40,115 nucleotides of DNA from Clostridiales bacterium (lineage in GTDB: Bacteria > Bacillota > Clostridia > Oscillospirales > Oscillospiraceae): NCBI GenBank assembly GCA_012729975.1, contig JAAYBW010000205.1:1-40115 (forward strand), written 5' to 3'. Position numbers and translations under genes: made by a program. Below, piece by piece: positions 15,612-31,774 of this stretch. The notes beneath the pieces are model-generated. The model was not told the DNA's origin, made no database searches, and was given only the letters and a program-made list of their open reading frames with translations. Numbering within the stretch: the first letter of the stretch is position 1; each line of letters opens with the position of its first letter.

Positions 15612-15678
15612 CCTGCTGTGCGGACGCGGTTTGTAAGGCTTTTGTTTGTCGGTATTTATTAAGGAGAGTGGAAGTCCC

Positions 15679-20585: not shown

Positions 20586-22349
20586 ATGAGTACATTTGGT
20601 TACTCAATGCCTGATTATTTCCAAAACATGTCAGCTATCGGCTCGCCGCTTGATAAGCATAACGACGAGAACGAGGCTGAACTGAAAAAGATTGAGGATG
20701 AACTGCAAAAACAGTTATCCGAAGTTCTGGCTTCCGGCCGCACCGACGAATCGCTTAATAAGTCGGGACAGATGACGGCTATGCAGCGTCTTGAGATTCT
20801 GGTAGATAAGGGCTCCTGGTTTCCGCTCAACAGCCTTTATAATCCCGGCGACAACGCCGACGGAAGCACCGGAGTCATTACCGGTCTGGGCAAGATTCAC
20901 GACAAGTGGGCGGTCATAATCGCATCGGATAACAAAAAGCTTGCCGGAGCCTGGGTAGCCGGACAGGCCTTGAAGCTGACGCGCGCGACAGATATCGCAA
21001 AGCAGCTTCATATCCCGCTTGTCTATGTCCTCAACTGCAGCGGCGTCAAGCTCGACGAGCAGGAGAAGGTCTATGCGGGCCGCGTTACGGGCGGCACGCC
21101 GTTTTTCCGCCACGCCGAACTGATGCAGCTCGGAGTCCCGGTTCTTGTCGGCATCTACGGCACGAACCCCGCCGGCGGCGGATATCACGCCATCAGCCCC
21201 ACCATCCTGATTGCCCATGAGAAAGCAAATATGGCGGTCGGCGGCGCCGGCATCGTCGGCGGAATGAACCCCAAGGGGTATGTGGACAAGGAGACCGCGC
21301 AAGCTCTCATCGACGCCACCAGAAACGCCGTTGAAGAAGATCCTCCCGGAGCGGTTGCGATTCATTACGGCGAGACGGGATTCTTCCGCGAGGTATATAC
21401 CGAGGAAGAGGGCGTTCTGGAAGCCATTAAAAAATATATGGATGCAATTCCCGCCTACAACGAAAACTTCTTCCGTGTCGACGACCCGAAGGAACCTGCT
21501 TACCCGGGCGCCGACCTCTATACGCATGTGCCCTTCAACCAGAAGCGCGCCTATGACATGAAGAAGGTCCTCGCCTGCCTGTTCGACGGCAGCGAGTTCA
21601 TGGAATTCAAAAAAGGCTACGGCCCCGAGATTATTGCGGGTCTTGCAAAAGTCAACGGTCTGCTTTGCGGCGTTGTCGCTAACGCGCAGGGCATGTTCCC
21701 GAATTATCCCGAGTACCGCGAAGGCAGCGTAGGCATCGGCGGTAAGCTGTATCGCCAGGGTCTTATTAAAATGAGCGAGTTTATAACGCTGTGCGCCAGA
21801 GACCGCATCCCGGTGATCTGGATCCAGGATACCACCGGCATCGACGTGGGCGACCCCGCCGAGAAGGCCGAGCTCCTTGGCCTTGGGCAGTCTCTCATCT
21901 TCAGCATAGAGAACGCGAAGATACCGCAGATGGAGATCACGCTCCGCAAGGGAACCGCGGCCGCGCACTACGTCATCGGCGGCCCGCAGGGCAACAACAC
22001 AAACGTTTTCAGCCTCGGCACCGCCGCGACGGAGATCTACGTCATGCACGGCGAGACAGCCGCTGCCGCGCTGTCTGCCCGCCGCCTTGTCAAGGATCAG
22101 GACGCCGGCAAGGACATCCAGCCCACCATTGACAAGATGAACGAGGTCATCAAGGCCTACTACGATAAATCCCGTCCCGGCTACTGCGCCAAGGTCGGCT
22201 TTGTCGATGAGATCGTTAAAATGGACGCACTGCGCAACTATATCTGCGCTTTTATCGGAGCCGCTTATCAGAATCCGACCGGACTCTGCGCATTCCATCA
22301 GATGCTGACTCCGAGGGTAATCCGTGACTGGGACAATCTTAATAAGTGA
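20586..22349 (+). CDS. gcdA: Glutaconyl-CoA decarboxylase alpha subunit (carboxyltransferase)
   Basis: This 587-residue protein equals the length I recall for GcdA of Acidaminococcus and shares its special N-terminus (Y-S-M-P-D-Y-F-Q-N-M near 6-15). Crotonase-fold carboxyltransferase motifs are present: L-N-C-S-G-V-K, G-T-N-P-A-G-G-G-Y-H (about 195-204), I-W-I-Q-D-T-T-G-I-D-V-G (about 414-425), and R-K-G-T-A-A-A-H-Y-V-I-G-G-P. GcdA moves the carboxyl group from glutaconyl-CoA to biotin, giving crotonyl-CoA. In the known enzyme the membrane subunit GcdB then decarboxylates carboxybiotin and pumps Na+; no GcdB is found in this window. It is the first gene of the cluster, 24 bases before the 5S-like gene. 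A related specificity (methylmalonyl-CoA) is possible but less likely given the N-terminus. Confidence 0.9.
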   Translation: MSTFGYSMPDYFQNMSAIGSPLDKHNDENEAELKKIEDELQKQLSEVLASGRTDESLNKSGQMTAMQRLEILVDKGSWFPLNSLYNPGDNADGSTGVITGLGKIHDKWAVIIASDNKKLAGAWVAGQALKLTRATDIAKQLHIPLVYVLNCSGVKLDEQEKVYAGRVTGGTPFFRHAELMQLGVPVLVGIYGTNPAGGGYHAISPTILIAHEKANMAVGGAGIVGGMNPKGYVDKETAQALIDATRNAVEEDPPGAVAIHYGETGFFREVYTEEEGVLEAIKKYMDAIPAYNENFFRVDDPKEPAYPGADLYTHVPFNQKRAYDMKKVLACLFDGSEFMEFKKGYGPEIIAGLAKVNGLLCGVVANAQGMFPNYPEYREGSVGIGGKLYRQGLIKMSEFITLCARDRIPVIWIQDTTGIDVGDPAEKAELLGLGQSLIFSIENAKIPQMEITLRKGTAAAHYVIGGPQGNNTNVFSLGTAATEIYVMHGETAAAALSARRLVKDQDAGKDIQPTIDKMNEVIKAYYDKSRPGYCAKVGFVDEIVKMDALRNYICAFIGAAYQNPTGLCAFHQMLTPRVIRDWDNLNK

Positions 22350-22373: not shown

Positions 22374-23909
22374 ATGTCAATAGGTGCAAATGTCTTTGGA
22401 GCAGACATGAAACCGCTGCTTATAACAGACACGATTCTGCGCGACGCGCACCAGTCACAGGCCGCTACGCGCATGAGGACTGAAGATATGCTGCCCGCCT
22501 GTCCGATTCTGGACAGCATCGGGTACTGGTCGCTGGAATGCTGGGGCGGCGCTACCTTCGACACATGCATGCGGTACTTGGACGAGGATCCCTGGGAGCG
22601 GCTTCGCACACTGAAAAAGGCGCTTCCGAATACAAAACTGCAAATGCTTCTGCGCGGACAGAATATACTCGGATATCGGAATTATTCGGATGATGTGCTG
22701 GACAGATTCTGCAAAAAGTCTATTGAAAACGGAATCGATGTCGTCAGGATTTTCGATGCGCTCAATGACACGAGAAACGTACAAAGAGCAATGCAAAGCG
22801 TTAAGGAGTACGGCGGTCTTTGCGAGCCGGCGATGTCATATACGATAAGCCCGATCCACAGTGAACAGTATTTCATCGACCTGGCCCTGAAGCTTGAGGA
22901 TATGGGCGCAGATGTTATATGCATCAAAGATATGGCAAATCTGCTTTTGCCCATCGCCGCGTACAGCCTCGTGGAAAAGCTGAAAAAGCGTATCAAGGTT
23001 CCTATCCATCTGCATACACACAACACAACCGGAACCGGCGATATGGTTTACCTTATGGCTGCCCTGGCCGGAGTGGATATAGTGGATACCGCGCTCTCTC
23101 CGCTCGGCAACGGAACCGCTCAGCCTGCTACCGAGCCTCTGGTGGCCACCTTAAAGGGGAGCGAGCGCGACACAAAGCTTGACCTTGAAAAGCTCAGCGA
23201 GGCTGCAAAGCATTTTCGTGCCGTAGCCGACAAACTCATCGCCGAGAAGGTCATTGATCCGAAGGTGCTGCAGGTCGATACGAACACGCTCATATACCAG
23301 GTTCCCGGAGGTATGCTCTCAAACCTTATCTCTCAGCTCAAGGAAGCGAAGGCGGAGAGTAAATACTACGATGTTTTAAATGAGACCGCGGAAGTCCGCA
23401 GGGAGTTTGGCTATCCGCCTCTGGTGACCCCGACAAGCCAGATTGTAGGCACTCAGGCCGTTATGAACGTAATTGCCGGAGAGCGCTACAAAATGGTTAC
23501 CAAAGAATCCAAGGCGCTGCTGCGCGGCGAATACGGACAGCTTCCCGGCCCCGTAGATCCCAAGGTTCAAAAAAAGGTCATCGGCGATGACGAGGTAATA
23601 ACCTGCAGGCCCGCCGACCTTCTAAAGCCCGAATTTGATAATCTCAAGCAGGAAATCGGAGACCTTGCGCGTTCCGAAGAAGATGTTTTAAGTTACGCTC
23701 TTTTCCCGGCGGTAGCAAGAGCCTTCTTCGAGCGCCGTCTTGAAAAAGAAAACGGAATAAGCGACGAGATTCTGGCCGTGATTGCCGCCGCCGTACAGGG
23801 TATGGACGATGAAGAGCCGCATCCGCTTATTCGAAATTACGGAAAAACATATTTAAGCAATGCCGATATTCCGGCGGTAAATCCCACAATACGCAGCTGC
23901 GGAAATTGA
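22374..23909 (+). CDS. Transcarboxylase 5S-like / pyruvate carboxylase subunit B-like carboxyltransferase
   Basis: The 511-residue protein matches the 5S subunit of propionibacterial methylmalonyl-CoA:pyruvate transcarboxylase in length and along most of its sequence (E-C-W-G-G-A-T, L-L-R-G-Q-N, V-T-P-T-S-Q-I-V-G-T-Q-A). Metal ligands of the TIM barrel are present: Asp24 in L-R-D-A-H-Q-S, Lys185 (carbamylated lysine) in I-K-D-M-A, and His214 and His216 in H-T-H. It exchanges carboxyl between biotin and pyruvate/oxaloacetate. It lacks a fused biotinyl domain, which the next gene supplies. OadA or PycB function is the alternative, but no OadB or biotin carboxylase is present. The ATG at 22374 follows GTGAGGTGA. 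Confidence 0.87.
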   Translation: MSIGANVFGADMKPLLITDTILRDAHQSQAATRMRTEDMLPACPILDSIGYWSLECWGGATFDTCMRYLDEDPWERLRTLKKALPNTKLQMLLRGQNILGYRNYSDDVLDRFCKKSIENGIDVVRIFDALNDTRNVQRAMQSVKEYGGLCEPAMSYTISPIHSEQYFIDLALKLEDMGADVICIKDMANLLLPIAAYSLVEKLKKRIKVPIHLHTHNTTGTGDMVYLMAALAGVDIVDTALSPLGNGTAQPATEPLVATLKGSERDTKLDLEKLSEAAKHFRAVADKLIAEKVIDPKVLQVDTNTLIYQVPGGMLSNLISQLKEAKAESKYYDVLNETAEVRREFGYPPLVTPTSQIVGTQAVMNVIAGERYKMVTKESKALLRGEYGQLPGPVDPKVQKKVIGDDEVITCRPADLLKPEFDNLKQEIGDLARSEEDVLSYALFPAVARAFFERRLEKENGISDEILAVIAAAVQGMDDEEPHPLIRNYGKTYLSNADIPAVNPTIRSCGN

Positions 23910-23931: not shown

Positions 23932-24330
23932 ATGAAAAATTATAAGATAACGATCAACGGCAAAACCTATGACGTGGGTGTGGAAGAGACCGGTGCGGTT
24001 AAGGAAGTAAAAAGCGTTCAGATGCAGGCCCCCGCACCGAAAGCAGCTCCGGCCCCCGCCCCCAAGCCCGCCCCCGCTCCGGCTCCCGCGGCCCCGGCCG
24101 CGAAGGCTTCCGGTAATTCCGCAGACGTATTGGCGCCCTTGGCCGGGACGGTGCTTTCGGTATCGGTATCGGAAGGACAGCAGGTCAAAGAAGGCCAGGT
24201 CCTTGTCATTTTTGAAGCCATGAAGATGGAAAACGAGCTTGTGGCTCCTGTATCCGGCACGGTAAAAAAGGTAAATGTAGCCAAGGGTACGGTTATGGAA
24301 ACCGGCATGCTTGTTGTTTCCATAGCCTGA
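23932..24330 (+). CDS. Biotin carrier protein (GcdC / 1.3S-like)
   Basis: The 132-residue protein has a short N-terminal segment (1-30), a long flexible Ala/Pro linker (about 33-60) and a biotinyl domain (about 65-132). The biotin attachment motif E-A-M-K-M-E-N puts biotin on Lys98. The linker resembles that of GcdC in glutaconyl-CoA decarboxylase and allows biotin to swing between two active sites. Being placed directly after gcdA and the 5S-like gene (22-base gap), it should carry carboxyl groups between these two proteins. A strong ribosome site (GAGAGGAG) suggests high expression. A hairpin follows the gene. Confidence 0.92.
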   Translation: MKNYKITINGKTYDVGVEETGAVKEVKSVQMQAPAPKAAPAPAPKPAPAPAPAAPAAKASGNSADVLAPLAGTVLSVSVSEGQQVKEGQVLVIFEAMKMENELVAPVSGTVKKVNVAKGTVMETGMLVVSIA

Positions 24331-24365: not shown

Positions 24366-24391
24366 AAGCCGTGAGCGGCAGCTCACGGCTT
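24366..24391 (+). other. Intercistronic hairpin after the biotin carrier gene
   Basis: A perfect 11-bp stem (24366-24376 with 24381-24391) with the tetraloop GGCA lies in the 165-base gap between the biotin carrier and the acyl-CoA dehydrogenase genes. No U-run follows at once, so it is more likely an RNA stability or processing element, or a weak attenuator, than a full terminator. Confidence 0.5.
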
Positions 24392-24495: not shown

Positions 24496-25656
24496 ATGGA
24501 TTTCGCTTACACAGAAGATCAGAAAATGATAGCAGAGCTGGCAAAGGATTTCGCCGAAAAAGAAATAGCCCCGTATGTTGAAGAGGACGAAGAAAACCAT
24601 TATTACCGCCGTGAGATCCTCACTCAGATGGGAGAGCTCGGGCTTCTGGGCTTTAACATTCCGGAAGAATACGGCGGAAACGGCCTTGGCTGGATGGAAG
24701 CGGTTGCGGCGCTTTATGAAATTGCGAAAGTTCACACCTCCTGGAGACTGAGCATCAGCGGCAATATCTGGGGTCCCGCGCTGACCATACTGGAATACGG
24801 CACGGAAGAACAAAAGCAGCTGTATATTCCGGGTCTTTGCAGCGGTGAATATGCCGGCAGCTTCGCAATCACCGAAGCAAACTCGGGTTCGGATGTTGCC
24901 AGCATGAAAATGACGGCGAAAGATATGGGCGACCACTGGCTGCTCAACGGCAGCAAAATGTGGATCTCCGGCGGACATACCAGCGATATCGGACTAGTCT
25001 TTGCAAAAACGGATCCCGCAGCCAGCGGCTCAAAAGGAATCTCCTGCTTTATAATCGACTATAACAACACCGAAGGAATTACCAGAATACCCATTAATAA
25101 GAAGGTCGGCATGTGGTCCGCGCCTACTTCCGAGCTCGTGTTTGAAGACGCGAGGATACCCAAGCAGAACCTTCTCGGACCGCTCAACAAAGGCTTCCAG
25201 ATCTGCATGTGGATGCTCAACAACACACGCATGGGTTGTGCGACAGGCTCAGCGGCCCTGTCCGCGGCTTGCCTTGAAGGCGCTGCCAAATATGCTAACG
25301 AACGCACGCAGTTCGGCCAGCCCATCGGTAAGTTCCAGATGATCCAGCAGCAGATAGCCGAGATGAAGCTGGAGGATGAAGCCGCTAAGTATTTGCTTTT
25401 CAAAGCCGCCTGGCTTAAGGAAAACAAACTGCCGAGCCAGCAGGCGACTTCCATGGCGAAACTTGCCGGATGCAACGCAGCCGTTCACGGCGCTAACCTG
25501 GCTATGAAAATATACGGCTCATACGGCTATTCGGATGAATATCCCTGCGGCAGATGGCTTCGCGATGCCAAGCAGTTTGAAACTCTGGAGGGGACGTCAA
25601 ATATCCACATGACAATTGTCGCGGGCATAGAGCTCGGTTACCAGCCGGACAGGTAA
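24496..25656 (+). CDS. Acyl-CoA dehydrogenase, glutaryl-CoA dehydrogenase-like
   Basis: The 386-residue flavoprotein has the ACAD motifs: F-A-I-T-E-A-N-S-G-S-D (123-133), W-I-S-G-G (156-160), and the C-terminal L-E-G-T-S-N with catalytic base Glu365. Arg84 in T-S-W-R-L-S lines up with human glutaryl-CoA dehydrogenase Arg94, which holds the gamma-carboxylate, and N-S-G-S-D is also glutaryl-type. The residues at human Glu87 and Tyr369, which I recall as differing in the non-decarboxylating enzyme, are Ala77 and Leu364 here. It probably oxidises glutaryl-CoA to glutaconyl-CoA, feeding GcdA, with EtfBA as electron acceptor. The substrate assignment is inference from alignment by eye. AGGAGG precedes the ATG. 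Confidence 0.8.
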   Translation: MDFAYTEDQKMIAELAKDFAEKEIAPYVEEDEENHYYRREILTQMGELGLLGFNIPEEYGGNGLGWMEAVAALYEIAKVHTSWRLSISGNIWGPALTILEYGTEEQKQLYIPGLCSGEYAGSFAITEANSGSDVASMKMTAKDMGDHWLLNGSKMWISGGHTSDIGLVFAKTDPAASGSKGISCFIIDYNNTEGITRIPINKKVGMWSAPTSELVFEDARIPKQNLLGPLNKGFQICMWMLNNTRMGCATGSAALSAACLEGAAKYANERTQFGQPIGKFQMIQQQIAEMKLEDEAAKYLLFKAAWLKENKLPSQQATSMAKLAGCNAAVHGANLAMKIYGSYGYSDEYPCGRWLRDAKQFETLEGTSNIHMTIVAGIELGYQPDR

Positions 25657-25701: not shown

Positions 25702-26475
25702 ATGAATGTTTCATACGAGGTTAAAGAGCATGTCGCAGTATTGACAATCAACAGACCTGAAGCATTAAACGCGTTAAACACGGCAGTTCTGCAGGATCTT
25801 TCACTGGCAGCGGCGCAAGCGGAGGCTGACAGCGATGTCTATGTCCTGGTTATAACAGGTTCGGGCAGAGCGTTCGTGGCCGGAGCGGACATTGTCCAGA
25901 TGAAAGACTTAAACGCGGTTGAGGCTAAATCATTCGCGGAAGTCGCCAACAATATATTCAGTAAAATCGAGGGCATGTCCAAACCGGTCATAGCAGCCGT
26001 AAACGGTTATGCGCTGGGCGGAGGATGTGAGCTGGCGATGGCCTGCGATATCAGGATCGCCGGAGCGAAAGCGAAATTCGGTCAGCCGGAAGTCGGTCTC
26101 GGTATTACTCCGGGCTTCGGGGGAACGCAGAGACTGCCGAGGATAGTAGGCTCCTCGAAGGCCAAGGAGCTTATATTTACCGCGGAGACCATTAATGCGG
26201 AAGAAGCGCTCCGGATCGGGCTGGTCAGCAAAGTGGTTGCGGATGACGAGCTTATGAGCACCGCGATGGAAATGGCAAACAAGATCGCGAAGAATGCGCA
26301 GATCGCGGTACGGCAGAGCAAGGATGCAATTAATAAGGGAATGCAATGCGACATTAACACGGGCTTGGCTTACGAAACTCAGGCATTTTCCCTGTGCTTT
26401 TCCACGGAAGACCAAAAGGACGCGATGACGGCGTACGTAAATAAAAGCAAACTGTCTGAATTTAAAAACAGATAG
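25702..26475 (+). CDS. Enoyl-CoA hydratase (crotonase)
   Basis: The 257-residue protein has the crotonase fold. The oxyanion-hole and acid/base motifs are A-F-V-A-G-A-D-I (about 57-64), G-G-G-C-E-L-A-M (catalytic Glu about 112), and G-Q-P-E-V-G-L-G (second Glu about 132), followed by P-G-F-G-G-T-Q-R-L. Both glutamates needed for hydration are kept, so it should hydrate crotonyl-CoA to (S)-3-hydroxybutyryl-CoA in the cytoplasm, or the reverse. Its neighbours on both sides act on the same C4 acyl-CoAs. Confidence 0.9.
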
Positions 26476-26501: not shown

Positions 26502-27347
26502 ATGCAAAGTATTTGTATTATCGGCGCCGGAACGATGGGGACCGATATAGCTCAGGTTTTTGCCCAGAACGGCTTTAGAGTTTTGGTTCGCGATATTACC
26601 GATGAAATAATCAGCAAGTCTTCCGCCAAACTCGAAAAGACCATATCGCGGCTCGTTGAAAAGGGCAAGATAAGCGCAGAAGAGAAATCAGACATATTGT
26701 CGCACGTCACTTTTACAACCGATTTAAATAAGTCGGCTGACGCAGATGTCGTTATTGAAGCGATCATTGAGGATGTAAAAATTAAAAAAGATTTGTTCAG
26801 GCAGCTGGACAGCATCTGTAAACCCGAAACCATCCTGGTGACCAACACATCTTCATTATCCATCACAGAGCTCTCGTCCGCGGTCGCCCGCAAGGGTAAG
26901 TTCATCGGCATGCACTTTTTTAATCCCGTTCCGGTTATGAAGCTGGTTGAGATTATCAGGGGCATGTCAACTTCCGAAGATACCTTCAAGGAAATATACG
27001 GGTTATCCAAGTCAATAGGGAAAGAGCCCGTTGAGGTCAACGACGGTCCCGGTTTTATAGTAAATAAAATACTGATACCGATGATAAACGAAGCGATTTG
27101 CGTATTACAGGACGGAATCGCAAGCATTGAGGATATTGACAAAGCTATGCGGTTGGGAGCAAATCATCCGATGGGGCCGCTCGCGCTGGCTGACCTTATA
27201 GGTAACGATGTGGTTCTCCATATCATGAATATTCTCTATGAAGAAACGGGAGACTCAAAGTACAGGCCGAATACTCTGCTGAAAAAAATGGTCCGGGGCG
27301 GCCTGCTCGGCAAAAAAACAGGAAAAGGTTTTTACGACTACACATAG
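26502..27347 (+). CDS. hbd: 3-hydroxybutyryl-CoA dehydrogenase
   Basis: The 281-residue length is typical of the clostridial enzyme. The NAD-binding motif G-A-G-T-M-G lies at 7-12; N-T-S-S-L-S-I-T and the catalytic H-F-F-N-P-V-P-V-M (His about 139) follow, then the C-terminal helical domain with N-H-P-M-G-P-L-A-L. It interconverts 3-hydroxybutyryl-CoA and acetoacetyl-CoA. With the crotonase it links crotonyl-CoA to acetoacetyl-CoA. No thiolase is encoded in the window, so cleavage to acetyl-CoA would need a gene elsewhere. GGGAAAGGA precedes the ATG. Confidence 0.9.
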
Positions 27348-27403
27348 CCGGCCATATTGCTCTTTCAAACCTGAATATGGCAACAGGCAAGAGGAGAATC
27401 ACA

Positions 27404-28063
27404 TTGGGCAAAATTACGACCGCGGCGGAAGCGGTCAGAAACATTAAAGACGGAGATGTCATTCTTGTCGGCGGTTTTTTAATGGCGGGAAGTCCGGAAA
27501 CGCTGATAAAAGCGCTGCTTGAGACAAGCGGGGCAAAAGACCTGACAGTCGTATCAAATGATACCGGAACAGCAGACTCAAACATGATCAAGGTCATGAA
27601 GACGGGAAGAGTCATTAAAGTTCACGCTTCGTATATCGGAGCGAATCCGATGACCGGGCAGATGCTGATTGACGACCCGAACAGCGTTACCCTTTATCCT
27701 CAGGGGACTCTTGCGGAGAAGCTTCGCTGCGGCGGAGCCGGAATCGCCGGCTTTTACACGCCGGTAGGAGTGGGAACCGTCATTGCGGAGGGAAAAGAAT
27801 CGCGCATATTTGACGGCCGCGAATATCTGCTTGAAACGGCCCTGCGCGGCAATGTCGCTTTTGTAAAGGCTACGATAGCCGACAAATTCGGCAACTGCTT
27901 TTTAAGGGGATCAACGAAAAATTTCGGCGCTATTATGGCGCGGGCGGCCGACTATGTAGTAGCGGAGGCGCAAAAAATAGTTGAAGTCGGCGAGCTCGAT
28001 CCGGAACTTGTGACAATACCGGGTATATTCATTGATGCGCTCGTACAATCGGAGGATGCATAA
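27404..28063 (+). CDS. CoA-transferase subunit A (acetoacetate/butyrate type)
   Basis: The family I CoA-transferase alpha subunit shows I-K-D-G-D-V-I-L-V-G-G-F near its N-terminus and the P-Q-G-T-L-A-E-K-L-R-C-G-G-A-G-I segment in the middle. It pairs with subunit B to move CoA between an acyl-CoA and a free acid, such as butyryl-CoA with acetoacetate or acetate. A longer frame begins at an ATG at 27377 with no ribosome site before it; the TTG at 27404 follows GAGGAG (27391-27396) by 7 bases and gives 219 residues, the usual family length, so it was chosen. The stop shares one base with the start of subunit B (TAATG). Confidence 0.87.
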   Translation: MGKITTAAEAVRNIKDGDVILVGGFLMAGSPETLIKALLETSGAKDLTVVSNDTGTADSNMIKVMKTGRVIKVHASYIGANPMTGQMLIDDPNSVTLYPQGTLAEKLRCGGAGIAGFYTPVGVGTVIAEGKESRIFDGREYLLETALRGNVAFVKATIADKFGNCFLRGSTKNFGAIMARAADYVVAEAQKIVEVGELDPELVTIPGIFIDALVQSEDA

Positions 28064-28713
28064 TGGATATAAAGAATTTTATCGCCCGGCGCGTAGCGCG
28101 GGAACTTAAAGACGGCGATGTTGTCAATCTCGGGATAGGGCTTCCGACTCTGGTGGCCAACCATGTACCCGAAGGCGTGCAGATCACACTGCAGGCCGAG
28201 CACGGGATATTGGGTGCCGGGCCTACGCCCGAGCCCGGAAAAGAGGATCCGGATATTACAAACGCGGGCGGTTTCCCGATCACCGTGATACCCGGAGCAA
28301 GCTTTTTCGACAGTGCCACATCATTTGCGGTTATCCGCGGCGGCCACGTAGACGTTACTGTTCTCGGGGCCTTGCAGGTCGATGAAAAAGGCAACATTGC
28401 AAACTGGATGGTGCCCGGAAAACGCGTTCCCGGAATGGGCGGCGCGATGGATCTGGTTGTCGGCGCCAAAGAAGTAATCGTTGCGATGGAGCATTCCCTG
28501 AAAGGCTCGCCGAAAATATTTAAAGAATGCACTTATCCGCTTACCGCGGTCGGTGTTGTCAAGAAAATTATCACGGAAATGGGCGTTATGGATATAACAA
28601 CCGAAGGGATCGTGCTAAAGGAGATCGCGCCGGGTGTTACGATTGATGACATTCAGGCTCTGACAGACGCACAGCTTATTATTTCGGCTGAACTCAAAGT
28701 GATGGATTGCTGA
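28063..28713 (+). CDS. CoA-transferase subunit B (acetoacetate/butyrate type)
   Basis: The 216-residue protein resembles clostridial CtfB and AtoA along its whole length, with V-N-L-G-I-G-L-P-T (about 22-30), R-G-G-H-V-D-V-T-V-L-G-A-L-Q-V-D and P-G-M-G-G-A-M-D-L. The catalytic glutamate that forms the glutamyl-CoA intermediate lies in Q-A-E-H-G-I-L-G; CtfB has S-E-N-G at this place, so the residues on both sides of the glutamate differ. That may mark a different acid specificity, for example a dicarboxylate such as glutarate, but this is speculation. It is translationally coupled to subunit A. Confidence 0.88.
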   Translation: MDIKNFIARRVARELKDGDVVNLGIGLPTLVANHVPEGVQITLQAEHGILGAGPTPEPGKEDPDITNAGGFPITVIPGASFFDSATSFAVIRGGHVDVTVLGALQVDEKGNIANWMVPGKRVPGMGGAMDLVVGAKEVIVAMEHSLKGSPKIFKECTYPLTAVGVVKKIITEMGVMDITTEGIVLKEIAPGVTIDDIQALTDAQLIISAELKVMDC

Positions 28714-28805: not shown

Positions 28806-29939
28806 ATGTTTTTTAACGAGGATCATGAGTATATTCGCGACCTGGCAAGAGAATTCGCGGAAAAAGAGCTGGCGCCCATTGCCAACGAAATTGATCAGAA
28901 TGATGAAGTGCCGCAGCATATCTATGATACGATGGCGGAGATGGGCTTTTTCGGCATAAAGATTCCCGAGGAGTACGGCGGCCAGGGTATGGATACGCGT
29001 ACCTATGTATGCGTTATGGAAGAGATCTGTAAAAAATGCATTGCGGCAAGCCTTATTATGTCCTCGGCCAACTCCCTGTCGACTGCGCCGATGCTTCTTG
29101 CGGGCACGGAGGAACAAAAGCAGAAGTATATTCCCGGAATAGCCAGCGGCAAGGACTTTATGGCTTTCGGTCTGACCGAGCCGGGCGCGGGCAGTGACGC
29201 GGGTTCCATGACCACAAAGGCTGTGGAGGACGGAGACTACTACATTCTCAACGGGCGCAAGACATTCATCACAGGCGCTCCCTTTGCCAAAAATGCGGTC
29301 ATCTTCGCTAAAACCAGCCCCGAAAAAGGTTCTAAGGGGATAACGAGCTTCATTGTTGACATGAGTTTGCCGGGTGTTTCGGTAGGCAAGCACGAGGACA
29401 AAATGGGGCTGCGCGGAGTAGCGACAAGCGACATCGTTCTCGAAGACGTTCGGGTTCATAAGAGCGAAATACTCGGTGAAATCGACAGAGGCTTCATAAC
29501 CGCCATGAAGACACTTTCCGTCGGACGCATAGGTGTGGCTTGCCAGGGCATCGGCGTATCACAGGGCGCGATGGACGAAGCGGTTAAATTTATCAAGGAA
29601 AGAAAGCAGTTCGGCAAAAGGCTCGCCGATTTCCAGGGGCTGCAGTTCATGATAGCGGATATGGAGGCAAAACTGAACGCGGCACGCCTTTTAACTTACA
29701 ACGCGGCGTATGAGATGGATATGGGTAAAGACGTGACAAAAGCTGCGTCGATGGCAAAGTATTATGCTACCGAGATGTCGCTGGAAATCGTCAGCAAAGC
29801 CTTACAGATGCACGGCGGTTACGGATATATAAAGGATTATCCCATCGAGCGCATGTATCGCGACGCCCGTGTGCTTACAATATTTGAAGGTACTTCCCAG
29901 GTACAGCAGATGGTTATCTCGGGAATAGTATTAAAATAA
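28806..29939 (+). CDS. Acyl-CoA dehydrogenase, butyryl-CoA dehydrogenase-like
   Basis: The 377-residue flavoprotein has F-G-L-T-E-P-G-A-G-S-D (121-131), F-I-T-G-A (154-158), and I-F-E-G-T-S-Q with catalytic base Glu361, as in short-chain acyl-CoA dehydrogenases of clostridia. The position of glutaryl-CoA dehydrogenase Arg94 is not an Arg here (K-C-I-A-A-S-L-I near 78-84), which separates it from the other dehydrogenase of the cluster. It lies directly before etfB and etfA, the usual order in bcd-etfBA groups, where crotonyl-CoA is reduced to butyryl-CoA with NADH and ferredoxin is reduced in the same step. A 92-base gap with a GGAGG site precedes it. Confidence 0.86.
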   Translation: MFFNEDHEYIRDLAREFAEKELAPIANEIDQNDEVPQHIYDTMAEMGFFGIKIPEEYGGQGMDTRTYVCVMEEICKKCIAASLIMSSANSLSTAPMLLAGTEEQKQKYIPGIASGKDFMAFGLTEPGAGSDAGSMTTKAVEDGDYYILNGRKTFITGAPFAKNAVIFAKTSPEKGSKGITSFIVDMSLPGVSVGKHEDKMGLRGVATSDIVLEDVRVHKSEILGEIDRGFITAMKTLSVGRIGVACQGIGVSQGAMDEAVKFIKERKQFGKRLADFQGLQFMIADMEAKLNAARLLTYNAAYEMDMGKDVTKAASMAKYYATEMSLEIVSKALQMHGGYGYIKDYPIERMYRDARVLTIFEGTSQVQQMVISGIVLK

Positions 29940-29954
29940 CAAAGGAGAACATGG

Positions 29955-30758
29955 ATGAACATACTGGTATGCATTAAACAGGTACCTGATATCGAACAAA
30001 TCAAAATCGATACCTCGAAAAATGTTATGTTGATTGAGGGTGTACCGACCATCGTCAATACCTTTGACACCTACGCTCTGGAAACAGCCGTAAAGGTCAA
30101 GGATGCCGATCCGGCTACAAAGGTATATGTCGTGACAATGGGCCCGGAGAAGGCTAAGGAAGCGCTCAAGAGCTGTCTTTCCGTAGGCGCGGACAAGGCT
30201 TATCTGGTTTCCGACAGTGTGCTTGCCGATTCCGACACGCTTGCAACAAGCTATGTGCTCGGCAGCGCCGTAAAGGCGATCGAGGCAAGTGAGGCGTTGT
30301 CTTTTGACCTCATCCTTTGCGGTAAGCAGGCAGTAGACGGCGACACCGCTCAGGTGGGCTCCCAATTGGCGGAGTATCTGAACTACCCGCAGATAACCTC
30401 TGCGCTTGAGATTGCTCTTGACGGCGGCAAGGTTCGCGCAAAGCGCGAGACCGAAGAAGGCAATGAGGTTATGGAAGCGGCGCTTCCCGCTGTAGTCACC
30501 ATTACCAAGACGGCTTATGAGCCGCGGTATGCCTCGGTAAAAACAAAGATGGCCGCAAACCGCGCTCAGATTCCGCTTCTGACCGCGGCCGATCTGGCGC
30601 TGGATACGGCCCTGGTCGGTTTAAACGGTTCGGCTGCGAAGGTCGTCAAGACCTTTGTACCCGAAAGGAAAAAAGGCGGAGTCAAGATTCAGGAAGAAAC
30701 CGGCGAGCTGGCCGCAGATAAACTGACGGCGCTCCTCAGTAACGCCGGCGTTATATAA
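29955..30758 (+). CDS. etfB: Electron transfer flavoprotein beta subunit
   Basis: The 267-residue protein begins with I-L-V-C-I-K-Q-V-P-D, typical of EtfB. The segments S-D-T-L-A-T-S and G-K-Q-A-V-D-G-D-T-A-Q-V-G resemble those of the bifurcating EtfB of Acidaminococcus, in which a second FAD in this subunit accepts hydride from NADH. With EtfA it would serve both acyl-CoA dehydrogenases of the cluster. AAGGAG lies shortly before the ATG, 15 bases after the dehydrogenase stop. Bifurcation is inferred from motif similarity and gene context. Confidence 0.92.
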   Translation: MNILVCIKQVPDIEQIKIDTSKNVMLIEGVPTIVNTFDTYALETAVKVKDADPATKVYVVTMGPEKAKEALKSCLSVGADKAYLVSDSVLADSDTLATSYVLGSAVKAIEASEALSFDLILCGKQAVDGDTAQVGSQLAEYLNYPQITSALEIALDGGKVRAKRETEEGNEVMEAALPAVVTITKTAYEPRYASVKTKMAANRAQIPLLTAADLALDTALVGLNGSAAKVVKTFVPERKKGGVKIQEETGELAADKLTALLSNAGVI

Positions 30759-30772
30759 GGGGGGAGCGTAAC

Positions 30773-31774
30773 ATGAGCGAATATAAAAACTTCTGGGTAT
30801 TTATAGAATCCCAAAACGGTGAAGCGAAGAATGCGAGTCTGGAACTGCTGAGTCCCGGAAAGAAGCTGGCAGACGCGGCAGGCGAAAAGCTTGTTGCCGT
30901 TGTTTTAGGCAGCCAGGTTGAAGCGGCCGTCAAAGCGGCGATTTCCTACGGCGCGGACGAGGTTATAAAGGTTGACAGCGCCGAATATGCCGATTACAGT
31001 ACCGAAGGCTACACATATGCTCTCGAGCAGCTGGTAAATAAGTATAAGCCCGCGACGATCCTTATAGGCGCTACGGGCAAGGGCCGCGATCTTGCTCCCA
31101 GGCTTGCCGGCCGTCTTAAGACCGGCCTTGTGGCCGATTGTACGGGTCTTGACATAGACGCGTCGACCGGCACCGTTCTGTGGACACGTCCGGTATACGG
31201 CGGCAAGAGCATGGCTTCGATCGAAATACCCTCAGCCCGTCCGCAGATCGGCACGGTGCGCCAGGGCGTATTTAAGCGCGGTGAGCCCGATACCGGGCGA
31301 AGCGCCGATATTATCGGTGAAAACATATCAATCCCCGCGGGAACTATCCGCACATCGGTTGTCGAGAAGATAGCGGAAGCAGCCGAAGGCGCGGTTAAGC
31401 TTGAAGAGGCTGATGTCATAGTCTCCGGCGGACGCGGACTGGGAAAGCCCGAGAACTTCTCTTTGGTAAAGGATTTGGCGGATGTGCTCGGCGGAGTCGT
31501 AGGTGCCTCGCGCGCGGCGGTAGACGCCGGATGGATTTCACATGTCCATCAGGTCGGACAGACCGGAAAGACCGTCGGGCCGAAGCTTTATATCGCTTGC
31601 GGAATTTCGGGGGCGATCCAGCACCTTGCCGGCATGTCCGGTTCGGATGTTATCATAGCTATCAACCGCGACTGCGATGCGCCGATATTTGACATCGCCG
31701 ATTACGGCATCGTCGGAGACATAAAGGAAGTTCTTCCCGCTCTCACCGAGGCCATAAAGAAGCTTAAAGCATAA
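30773..31774 (+). CDS. etfA: Electron transfer flavoprotein alpha subunit
   Basis: The 333-residue protein has the EtfA FAD domain in its C-terminal half: S-G-G-R-G-L-G (about 222-228), G-A-S-R-A-A-V-D-A-G-W (about 246-256), Q-V-G-Q-T-G-K-T-V-G-P and C-G-I-S-G-A-I-Q-H. The N-terminal half is the adenine-nucleotide alpha hydrolase-like domain. It has no extra N-terminal ferredoxin domain, unlike some clostridial EtfA proteins. It is the last gene of the cluster, 14 bases after etfB, with a strong terminator 26 bases after its stop. Confidence 0.93.
   Translation: MSEYKNFWVFIESQNGEAKNASLELLSPGKKLADAAGEKLVAVVLGSQVEAAVKAAISYGADEVIKVDSAEYADYSTEGYTYALEQLVNKYKPATILIGATGKGRDLAPRLAGRLKTGLVADCTGLDIDASTGTVLWTRPVYGGKSMASIEIPSARPQIGTVRQGVFKRGEPDTGRSADIIGENISIPAGTIRTSVVEKIAEAAEGAVKLEEADVIVSGGRGLGKPENFSLVKDLADVLGGVVGASRAAVDAGWISHVHQVGQTGKTVGPKLYIACGISGAIQHLAGMSGSDVIIAINRDCDAPIFDIADYGIVGDIKEVLPALTEAIKKLKA

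Follow-up and report, generated by a model that had tools for sequence, protein, structure and literature searches.

A Leu-type glutaryl-CoA dehydrogenase, predicted to be non-decarboxylating, encoded with GcdA, a 5S-type carboxyltransferase and a biotin carrier in an Oscillospiraceae bacterium

Does the acyl-CoA dehydrogenase encoded in an eleven-gene operon of an Oscillospiraceae bacterium oxidize glutaryl-CoA without decarboxylating it and, if so, where does the retained carboxyl group go? The question was raised by a DNA stretch of 40,115 nucleotides (hereafter the window), in which positions 24496–25656 of the forward strand hold one intact open reading frame of 386 residues, assigned to the acyl-CoA dehydrogenases through Pfam ACD domains, NCBIfam, and PDB sequence and fold matches. 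It is part of a series of eleven co-directional genes running on the forward strand from GcdA (20586–22349) to EtfA (30773–31774), in the order GcdA, 5S, biotin carrier, dehydrogenase, crotonase, 3-hydroxybutyryl-CoA dehydrogenase, CoA-transferase subunits A and B, second dehydrogenase, EtfB and EtfA. The first two intergenic gaps measure 24 bases (GcdA-5S) and 22 bases (5S-carrier). The 150-base gap between the carrier and the dehydrogenase harbors a strong stem-loop at 24366–24391 (fold z of −4.75, computed for the whole gap), and a similar hairpin, with a G-U variant, occurs in two related loci (L007 and L010) and is absent from the more distant relatives examined. Elsewhere in the window, a gene at 15646–16524 matches the Pfam streptomycin adenylyltransferase family with 313 bits.

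Residues were compared in a MAFFT alignment, for which PDB 1SIQ served to verify the sequence of human GCDH and 3MPI supplied that of the Desulfococcus multivorans enzyme (Des). The first-pass annotation, which had proposed a non-decarboxylating glutaryl-CoA dehydrogenase from a comparison by eye, placed the key residues correctly. Indeed, Arg84 (codon at 24745–24747), the predicted ligand of the substrate gamma-carboxylate, aligns with human Arg94 and Des Arg87; Ala77 (24724–24726) lies opposite human Glu87 and Des Ala80; and Leu364 lies opposite human Tyr369 and Des Val366, directly before the catalytic base Glu365 (human Glu370, Des Glu367; both codons at 25585–25590). Arg84 was not displaced from Arg94 and neither neighborhood was gapped. 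The catalytic Glu of the JK loop and the gamma-carboxylate Arg expected of a GDH_Des-type enzyme are hence present as Glu365 and Arg84. Arg84, Leu364 and Glu365 are found in every full-length orthologue listed, with Ala, Ser or Gly in the column of Ala77. Among ten control dehydrogenases other than glutaryl-CoA dehydrogenases (alignment A1), column 84 contains Gly, Ser or Ala in nine and column 364 contains Tyr or Phe in all ten, L055 being the single control that combines Arg84 with Tyr364. The second dehydrogenase of the operon (28806–29939), of the butyryl-CoA dehydrogenase/enoyl-CoA reductase type, has Ser and Phe in these two columns. Ala77, put forward as a discriminating position, does argue against a human-type enzyme, but Ala or Ser is the ordinary acyl-CoA dehydrogenase state, as seen in the controls; the replacement of Glu87 by Ala was discarded as a weak mark of non-decarboxylation.

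In decarboxylating enzymes, the Tyr preceding the catalytic Glu hydrogen-bonds the substrate-binding Arg and contacts the carboxylate that is lost as CO2 (PMC3169403). This Tyr is lost in the window enzyme, as first noticed, but it is replaced by Leu and not by the Val of the characterized enzyme. Wischgoll et al. (2010) reportedly described the Tyr-to-Val exchange as a strictly conserved mark and its role in the Desulfococcus enzyme, and measured against this mark Leu364 counts against the absence of decarboxylation. To our knowledge, no enzyme with Leu at this position has been characterized, and we know of no enzyme assay for the Leu-type clade. The best NCBIfam model, GlutCoADH_Des (NF045552), gives 395 bits, under its curated cut-off of 470 bits, which also counts against. 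This cut-off is however unreliable as an arbiter, since a glutaryl-CoA dehydrogenase-like protein with Thr instead of the substrate Arg (L131, 9127–10281, genome G493), encoded beside MmdA, passes it with 496 bits; that protein may be an annotation trap or may have changed its substrate.

The relatives of the window enzyme nevertheless place it on the side of the Desulfococcus enzyme. A scan of the genome collection returned 47 loci at 74–90% identity, the next match being at ~42%. The dehydrogenase of Sporobacter termitidis DSM 10068 is 90% identical, and its gene order agrees with that of the window operon over the part covered by its contig. A phylum-wide search added further Bacillota enzymes at 50–61% identity, of which three (L122–L124) are Leu-type and the remainder Val-type. 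The substrate Arg is present in all of these added enzymes save L131, and those linked to GcdA or MmdA (50–58% identity) have Val in the 364 column, versus Leu in the window family. In the maximum-likelihood tree, the Leu-type Bacillota enzymes form one clade (100/98) beside the Val types and 3MPI, and this whole group stands apart from the human/Burkholderia GCDH and the butyryl-CoA dehydrogenases (100/100), while L054 carries an independent Leu. By its sequence, the window enzyme is a member of a distinct Leu-type clade next to the Val-type enzymes. In two clusters of the collection, L017 (10001 and 17043) and L025 (3984 and 11459), two (nearly) identical dehydrogenase copies lie ~7 kb apart. 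The best PDB sequence match is 3MPI with 335 bits, followed by 295 bits for the next entry and 164 bits for human GCDH. With the AlphaFold2 model (pLDDT 92.5), the top five PDB matches of Foldseek all correspond to the Desulfococcus enzyme (3MPI/3MPJ), with other acyl-CoA dehydrogenases close behind, so that the fold alone is not decisive.

Compared with the Desulfococcus multivorans enzyme (3MPI/3MPJ), the window enzyme thus shares the carboxylate Arg, the catalytic Glu, the Ala at the human Glu87 site and a small aliphatic side chain where human GCDH has Tyr369, whereas it differs by Leu for Val, the NCBIfam score below the cut-off, the gene context and an identity of just 45%. This distance is a further objection, because ThnO, likewise 45% identical to GDH_Des, acts on a different substrate, a cyclic dicarboxylyl-CoA (PMC11659651). 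ThnO gives some ground for supposing that another carboxyl-bearing acyl-CoA, or a short one, is the substrate instead of glutaryl-CoA, as does Pelotomaculum terephthalicicum (L051), which has a window-type enzyme plus a Val-type enzyme beside MmdA. Such a substrate appears quite unlikely given that Arg84 is conserved throughout the family and that the solved relatives of the partner GcdA are glutaconyl-CoA decarboxylase subunits. With the decarboxylating human/Burkholderia GCDH, the window enzyme has the substrate Arg and the catalytic Glu in common, but both Tyr369 and Glu87 are replaced, identity is 31–33% and the branch is a separate one.

The strongest support for oxidation without decarboxylation is the genetic linkage to GcdA, the glutaconyl-CoA:biotin carboxyltransferase subunit (587 residues, 20586–22349), which lies three genes upstream of the dehydrogenase as initially annotated. 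It is a true GcdA, scoring 908 bits to 1PIX over residues 6–584 versus at most 144 bits to other acyl-CoA carboxyltransferases, including 90 bits to the 12S structure 1ON3. The linkage to the carboxyltransferase of glutaconyl-CoA decarboxylase that is expected of GDH_Des-type enzymes is therefore found within the operon itself. When only loci of 12 kb or more are counted, 29 of 31 family members have GcdA or MmdA nearby, versus none of 26 control acyl-CoA dehydrogenases (Fisher p = 3e-14, the loci being taken as independent though many are closely related). In the wider set of enzymes with Arg plus Val or Leu, the proportion is 13/20 versus 0/26 (Fisher p = 8e-7, kinship ignored). Were the dehydrogenase decarboxylating, GcdA would be redundant and would receive no substrate from this pathway. 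One could still imagine that Leu364 permits CO2 release and that GcdA serves another route, e.g., from 2-hydroxyglutarate: Leu at 364 has no known characterization, and the three 2-hydroxyacyl-CoA dehydratase-like pairs of the genome make another source of glutaconyl-CoA conceivable. This is very unlikely, however, as the GcdA/MmdA linkage recurs across Bacillota lineages, the tree groups the clade with the Val-type enzymes, a long way from the GCDH of human and Burkholderia, and the best dehydratase pair is closest to 2-hydroxyisocaproyl-CoA dehydratase models, under their cut-offs.

The nearest relative, the Arg kept and the Tyr lost, the true GcdA and its recurrent linkage all support the original proposal, and the co-directional CoA-transferase, Bcd-like dehydrogenase and EtfAB were also counted in its favor. 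With high confidence, the dehydrogenase is predicted to oxidize glutaryl-CoA without decarboxylation and to release glutaconyl-CoA. Acyl-CoA dehydrogenases remove an alpha proton and a beta hydride from their substrates; here, Glu365 would remove the proton and FAD would accept the hydride. Arg84 would grip the gamma-carboxylate. Since position 364 is occupied by Leu and not by Tyr, the carboxylate would be retained, as the analogous Desulfococcus enzyme suggests, and glutaconyl-CoA would leave. As its family membership suggests, GcdA would then shift the carboxyl group onto the biotin of the carrier, yielding crotonyl-CoA.

The fate of this carboxyl group depends on the two genes between GcdA and the dehydrogenase. 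The first encodes a 5S/OadA/PycB-type pyruvate-oxaloacetate carboxyltransferase of 511 residues (22374–23909, Pfam PYC_OADA) without a biotin domain of its own, and the second a biotin carrier of the GcdC/1.3S type (23932–24330, Pfam Biotin_lipoyl) with an Ala-Pro linker and an EAMKM biotin motif (motif at residues 96–99). In the window copy of 5S, Asp24, Lys185, His214 and His216 occupy the positions of the conserved metal/carbamyl-Lys motif, presumably in these roles. Its matches include PycB 5KS8 (best solved match, 510 bits), OadA 2NX9 and transcarboxylase 5S 1RQB, and the scores did not place it among the three. The first-pass annotation was right in treating GcdA as a glutaconyl-CoA carboxyltransferase but had missed 5S, and the decarboxylase set is not a standard sodium pump. 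Like the Na+-translocating glutaconyl-CoA decarboxylases of Acidaminococcus fermentans and Clostridium symbiosum, the operon encodes GcdA and a carrier with an Ala-Pro linker; unlike them, it has the 5S pyruvate carboxyltransferase instead of GcdB and a membrane GcdD. It resembles the methylmalonyl-CoA:pyruvate transcarboxylase of Propionibacterium (12S/5S/1.3S) in its three predicted soluble parts, a 5S and a free biotin carrier being encoded with an acyl-CoA carboxyltransferase, but its 5S has a gamma/delta-like tail and its acyl-CoA subunit is GcdA and not a member of the 12S family. With GcdA as this subunit, the complex may work like a transcarboxylase without belonging to the 12S/5S/1.3S family.

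Most family clusters carry a Na+-pump beta subunit. In ten loci of an Oscillospiraceae-like clade (the window, L007, L008, L010–L015 and L021), the gene that separates GcdA from the carrier instead encodes a 5S-type pyruvate carboxyltransferase, and the operon of each contains neither a beta nor a membrane delta subunit; L008 has a beta gene in an adjoining divergent cluster. On the dehydrogenase tree, the 5S label changes twice, which is most simply explained by one gain and one loss. The apparent loser, L009, has at this same place a stand-alone 83-residue open reading frame that matches the C-terminal tail of 5S (E 3e-20). This tail, common to the 5S orthologues and spanning residues 456–511 in the window copy (23739–23906), resembles the docking tails of gamma and delta subunits according to orthologue and OAD_gamma comparisons. 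The tail of the L015 5S, the L009 reading frame and a transmembrane delta subunit of L133 match the C-terminal end of Pfam OAD_gamma with sub-threshold E values of 0.005–0.03; the window tail alone had no match in Pfam, only longer or related tails matching OAD_gamma. Pattern (regex) searches for tailed delta subunits were empty, but direct reading of small open reading frames revealed that pump-type loci encode delta subunits with a single transmembrane segment and that L133 has one with a tail. The corresponding C-terminal segment of Na+ pumps connects their carboxyltransferase with the membrane portion (PMC7145394). From these weak but concordant scores, we infer that the tail may be a docking device tethering 5S to GcdA and the carrier.

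The carboxybiotin that GcdA would form requires an acceptor. The set of GcdA, tailed 5S and biotin carrier is tentatively read, on balance, as a soluble glutaconyl-CoA:pyruvate transcarboxylase that would save the energy of glutaconyl-CoA decarboxylation as oxaloacetate and not as a sodium gradient, a switch that would have arisen about once, in the Oscillospiraceae clade, with 5S replacing the membrane subunits. The carboxyl group on biotin would be passed by 5S to pyruvate, giving oxaloacetate. The main rival is a Na+-pumping glutaconyl-CoA decarboxylase made of GcdA and the carrier with an orphan beta subunit, 5S being incidental or part of a second pump, an oxaloacetate decarboxylase. The genome has one orphan OAD_beta gene (contig C188) and an MmdA-delta-carrier set (contig C45), and beta is present in most orthologous clusters outside the 5S clade. 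But the operon contains neither beta nor delta, 5S lies between GcdA and the carrier, and the orphan beta could equally belong to the MmdA set of C45. Moreover, no beta gene was detected in two relatives sharing the GcdA-5S-carrier-GDH operon (G158 and G159, of unstated completeness), in which 5S/pyruvate is the only carboxybiotin acceptor found. This last point favors the transcarboxylase, and the pump is regarded as possible but doubtful. The carrier of the MmdA set (L005, 10922–11344, contig C45 of G000) has AMNKV instead of AMKM, with an AAT codon at the position of the lysine, and is possibly not biotinylated.

With the pyruvate carboxylase beta subunit 5KS8 as its best solved match, 5S could also be the PycB half of a two-subunit, ATP-dependent pyruvate carboxylase using the carrier of the operon. 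This was rejected as highly improbable, because a search of the 97%-complete genome for biotin carboxylase (PF02785) gave no match, and in G158 and G159 the sole biotin carboxylase adjoins matches to the acetyl-CoA carboxylase carboxyltransferase. In the same 97%-complete genome, neither PEP carboxylase nor ATP-type PEP carboxykinase nor an acetyl-CoA carboxylase carboxyltransferase was found. The 5S of the operon is the sole PYC_OADA protein of the genome, and no other pyruvate carboxylase was found there.

Taken together, the operon appears to encode a glutarate-to-butyrate pathway in which the carboxyl group is passed on. The second dehydrogenase, with EtfB (29955–30758; sequence closest to the electron-bifurcating CarD and to Acidaminococcus EtfB) and EtfA (Pfam ETF and ETF_alpha), would reduce crotonyl-CoA to butyryl-CoA, which the CoA-transferase would swap for glutarate (profile matches to subunit A, AtoD/ScoA type, 27377–28063, and subunit B, AtoA/ScoB type, 28063–28713). 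The crotonase-type enoyl-CoA hydratase (25702–26475, above the PRK05809 cut-off) and the 3-hydroxybutyryl-CoA dehydrogenase (26502–27347, above that of PRK05808) would offer an exit in the direction from crotonyl-CoA to acetoacetyl-CoA. The route could also run in reverse, with oxaloacetate carboxylating crotonyl-CoA to glutaconyl-CoA and the dehydrogenase reducing the latter to glutaryl-CoA. Indeed, the decarboxylation energy of oxaloacetate is similar to that of glutaconyl-CoA, so that transcarboxylation between them should be near equilibrium. The value for glutaconyl-CoA is about −30 kJ/mol (PMC7145394). The reverse direction nonetheless seems unlikely, as Bcd/Etf, Crt and Hbd, which consume crotonyl-CoA, are in the same operon and a clear need for glutaryl-CoA is not known. 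The benzoyl-CoA pathway was rejected as a source of glutaryl-CoA: in a search that covered the HGD-D pairs and left class II (BamB) aside, these pairs came closest to HadBC-type dehydratase models and fell well short of the cut-offs for benzoyl-CoA reductase.

The closest precedent is found in Geobacter bemidjiensis, in which Gbem_1452-1454 encode GDH, GcdA and an OadA that contains two biotin domains, and pump subunits are missing; that both decarboxylases may cooperate was suggested in 2010 and called worth investigating (PMC2996986). Both systems combine a GDH of the non-decarboxylating type with GcdA and a protein of the OadA type and lack pump subunits, whereas the Geobacter carrier is fused twice to OadA and the window, from another phylum, has a separate carrier and a 5S with a docking-like tail. 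In the literature searched, which covered few subscription papers, no description of a glutaconyl-CoA:pyruvate transcarboxylase was found. Taken singly, the non-decarboxylating dehydrogenase, the Na+ pump and the transcarboxylase are all known kinds of enzyme; the Leu-type dehydrogenase clade and the arrangement with a separate carrier and a tailed 5S, in a phylum other than that of Geobacter, are new here.

These results broaden the sequence signature of non-decarboxylating glutaryl-CoA dehydrogenases, adding Leu to Val on the strength of a well-supported Bacillota clade. This bears on the annotation of anaerobic aromatic, lysine and glutarate metabolism, in which the energy yield to be expected depends on which of the two enzyme types is present. 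Should the transcarboxylase prove true, it would supply oxaloacetate in a genome without detected PEP carboxylase, ATP-type PEP carboxykinase, other pyruvate carboxylase or biotin carboxylase, and would represent another anaerobic way of banking the energy of decarboxylation.
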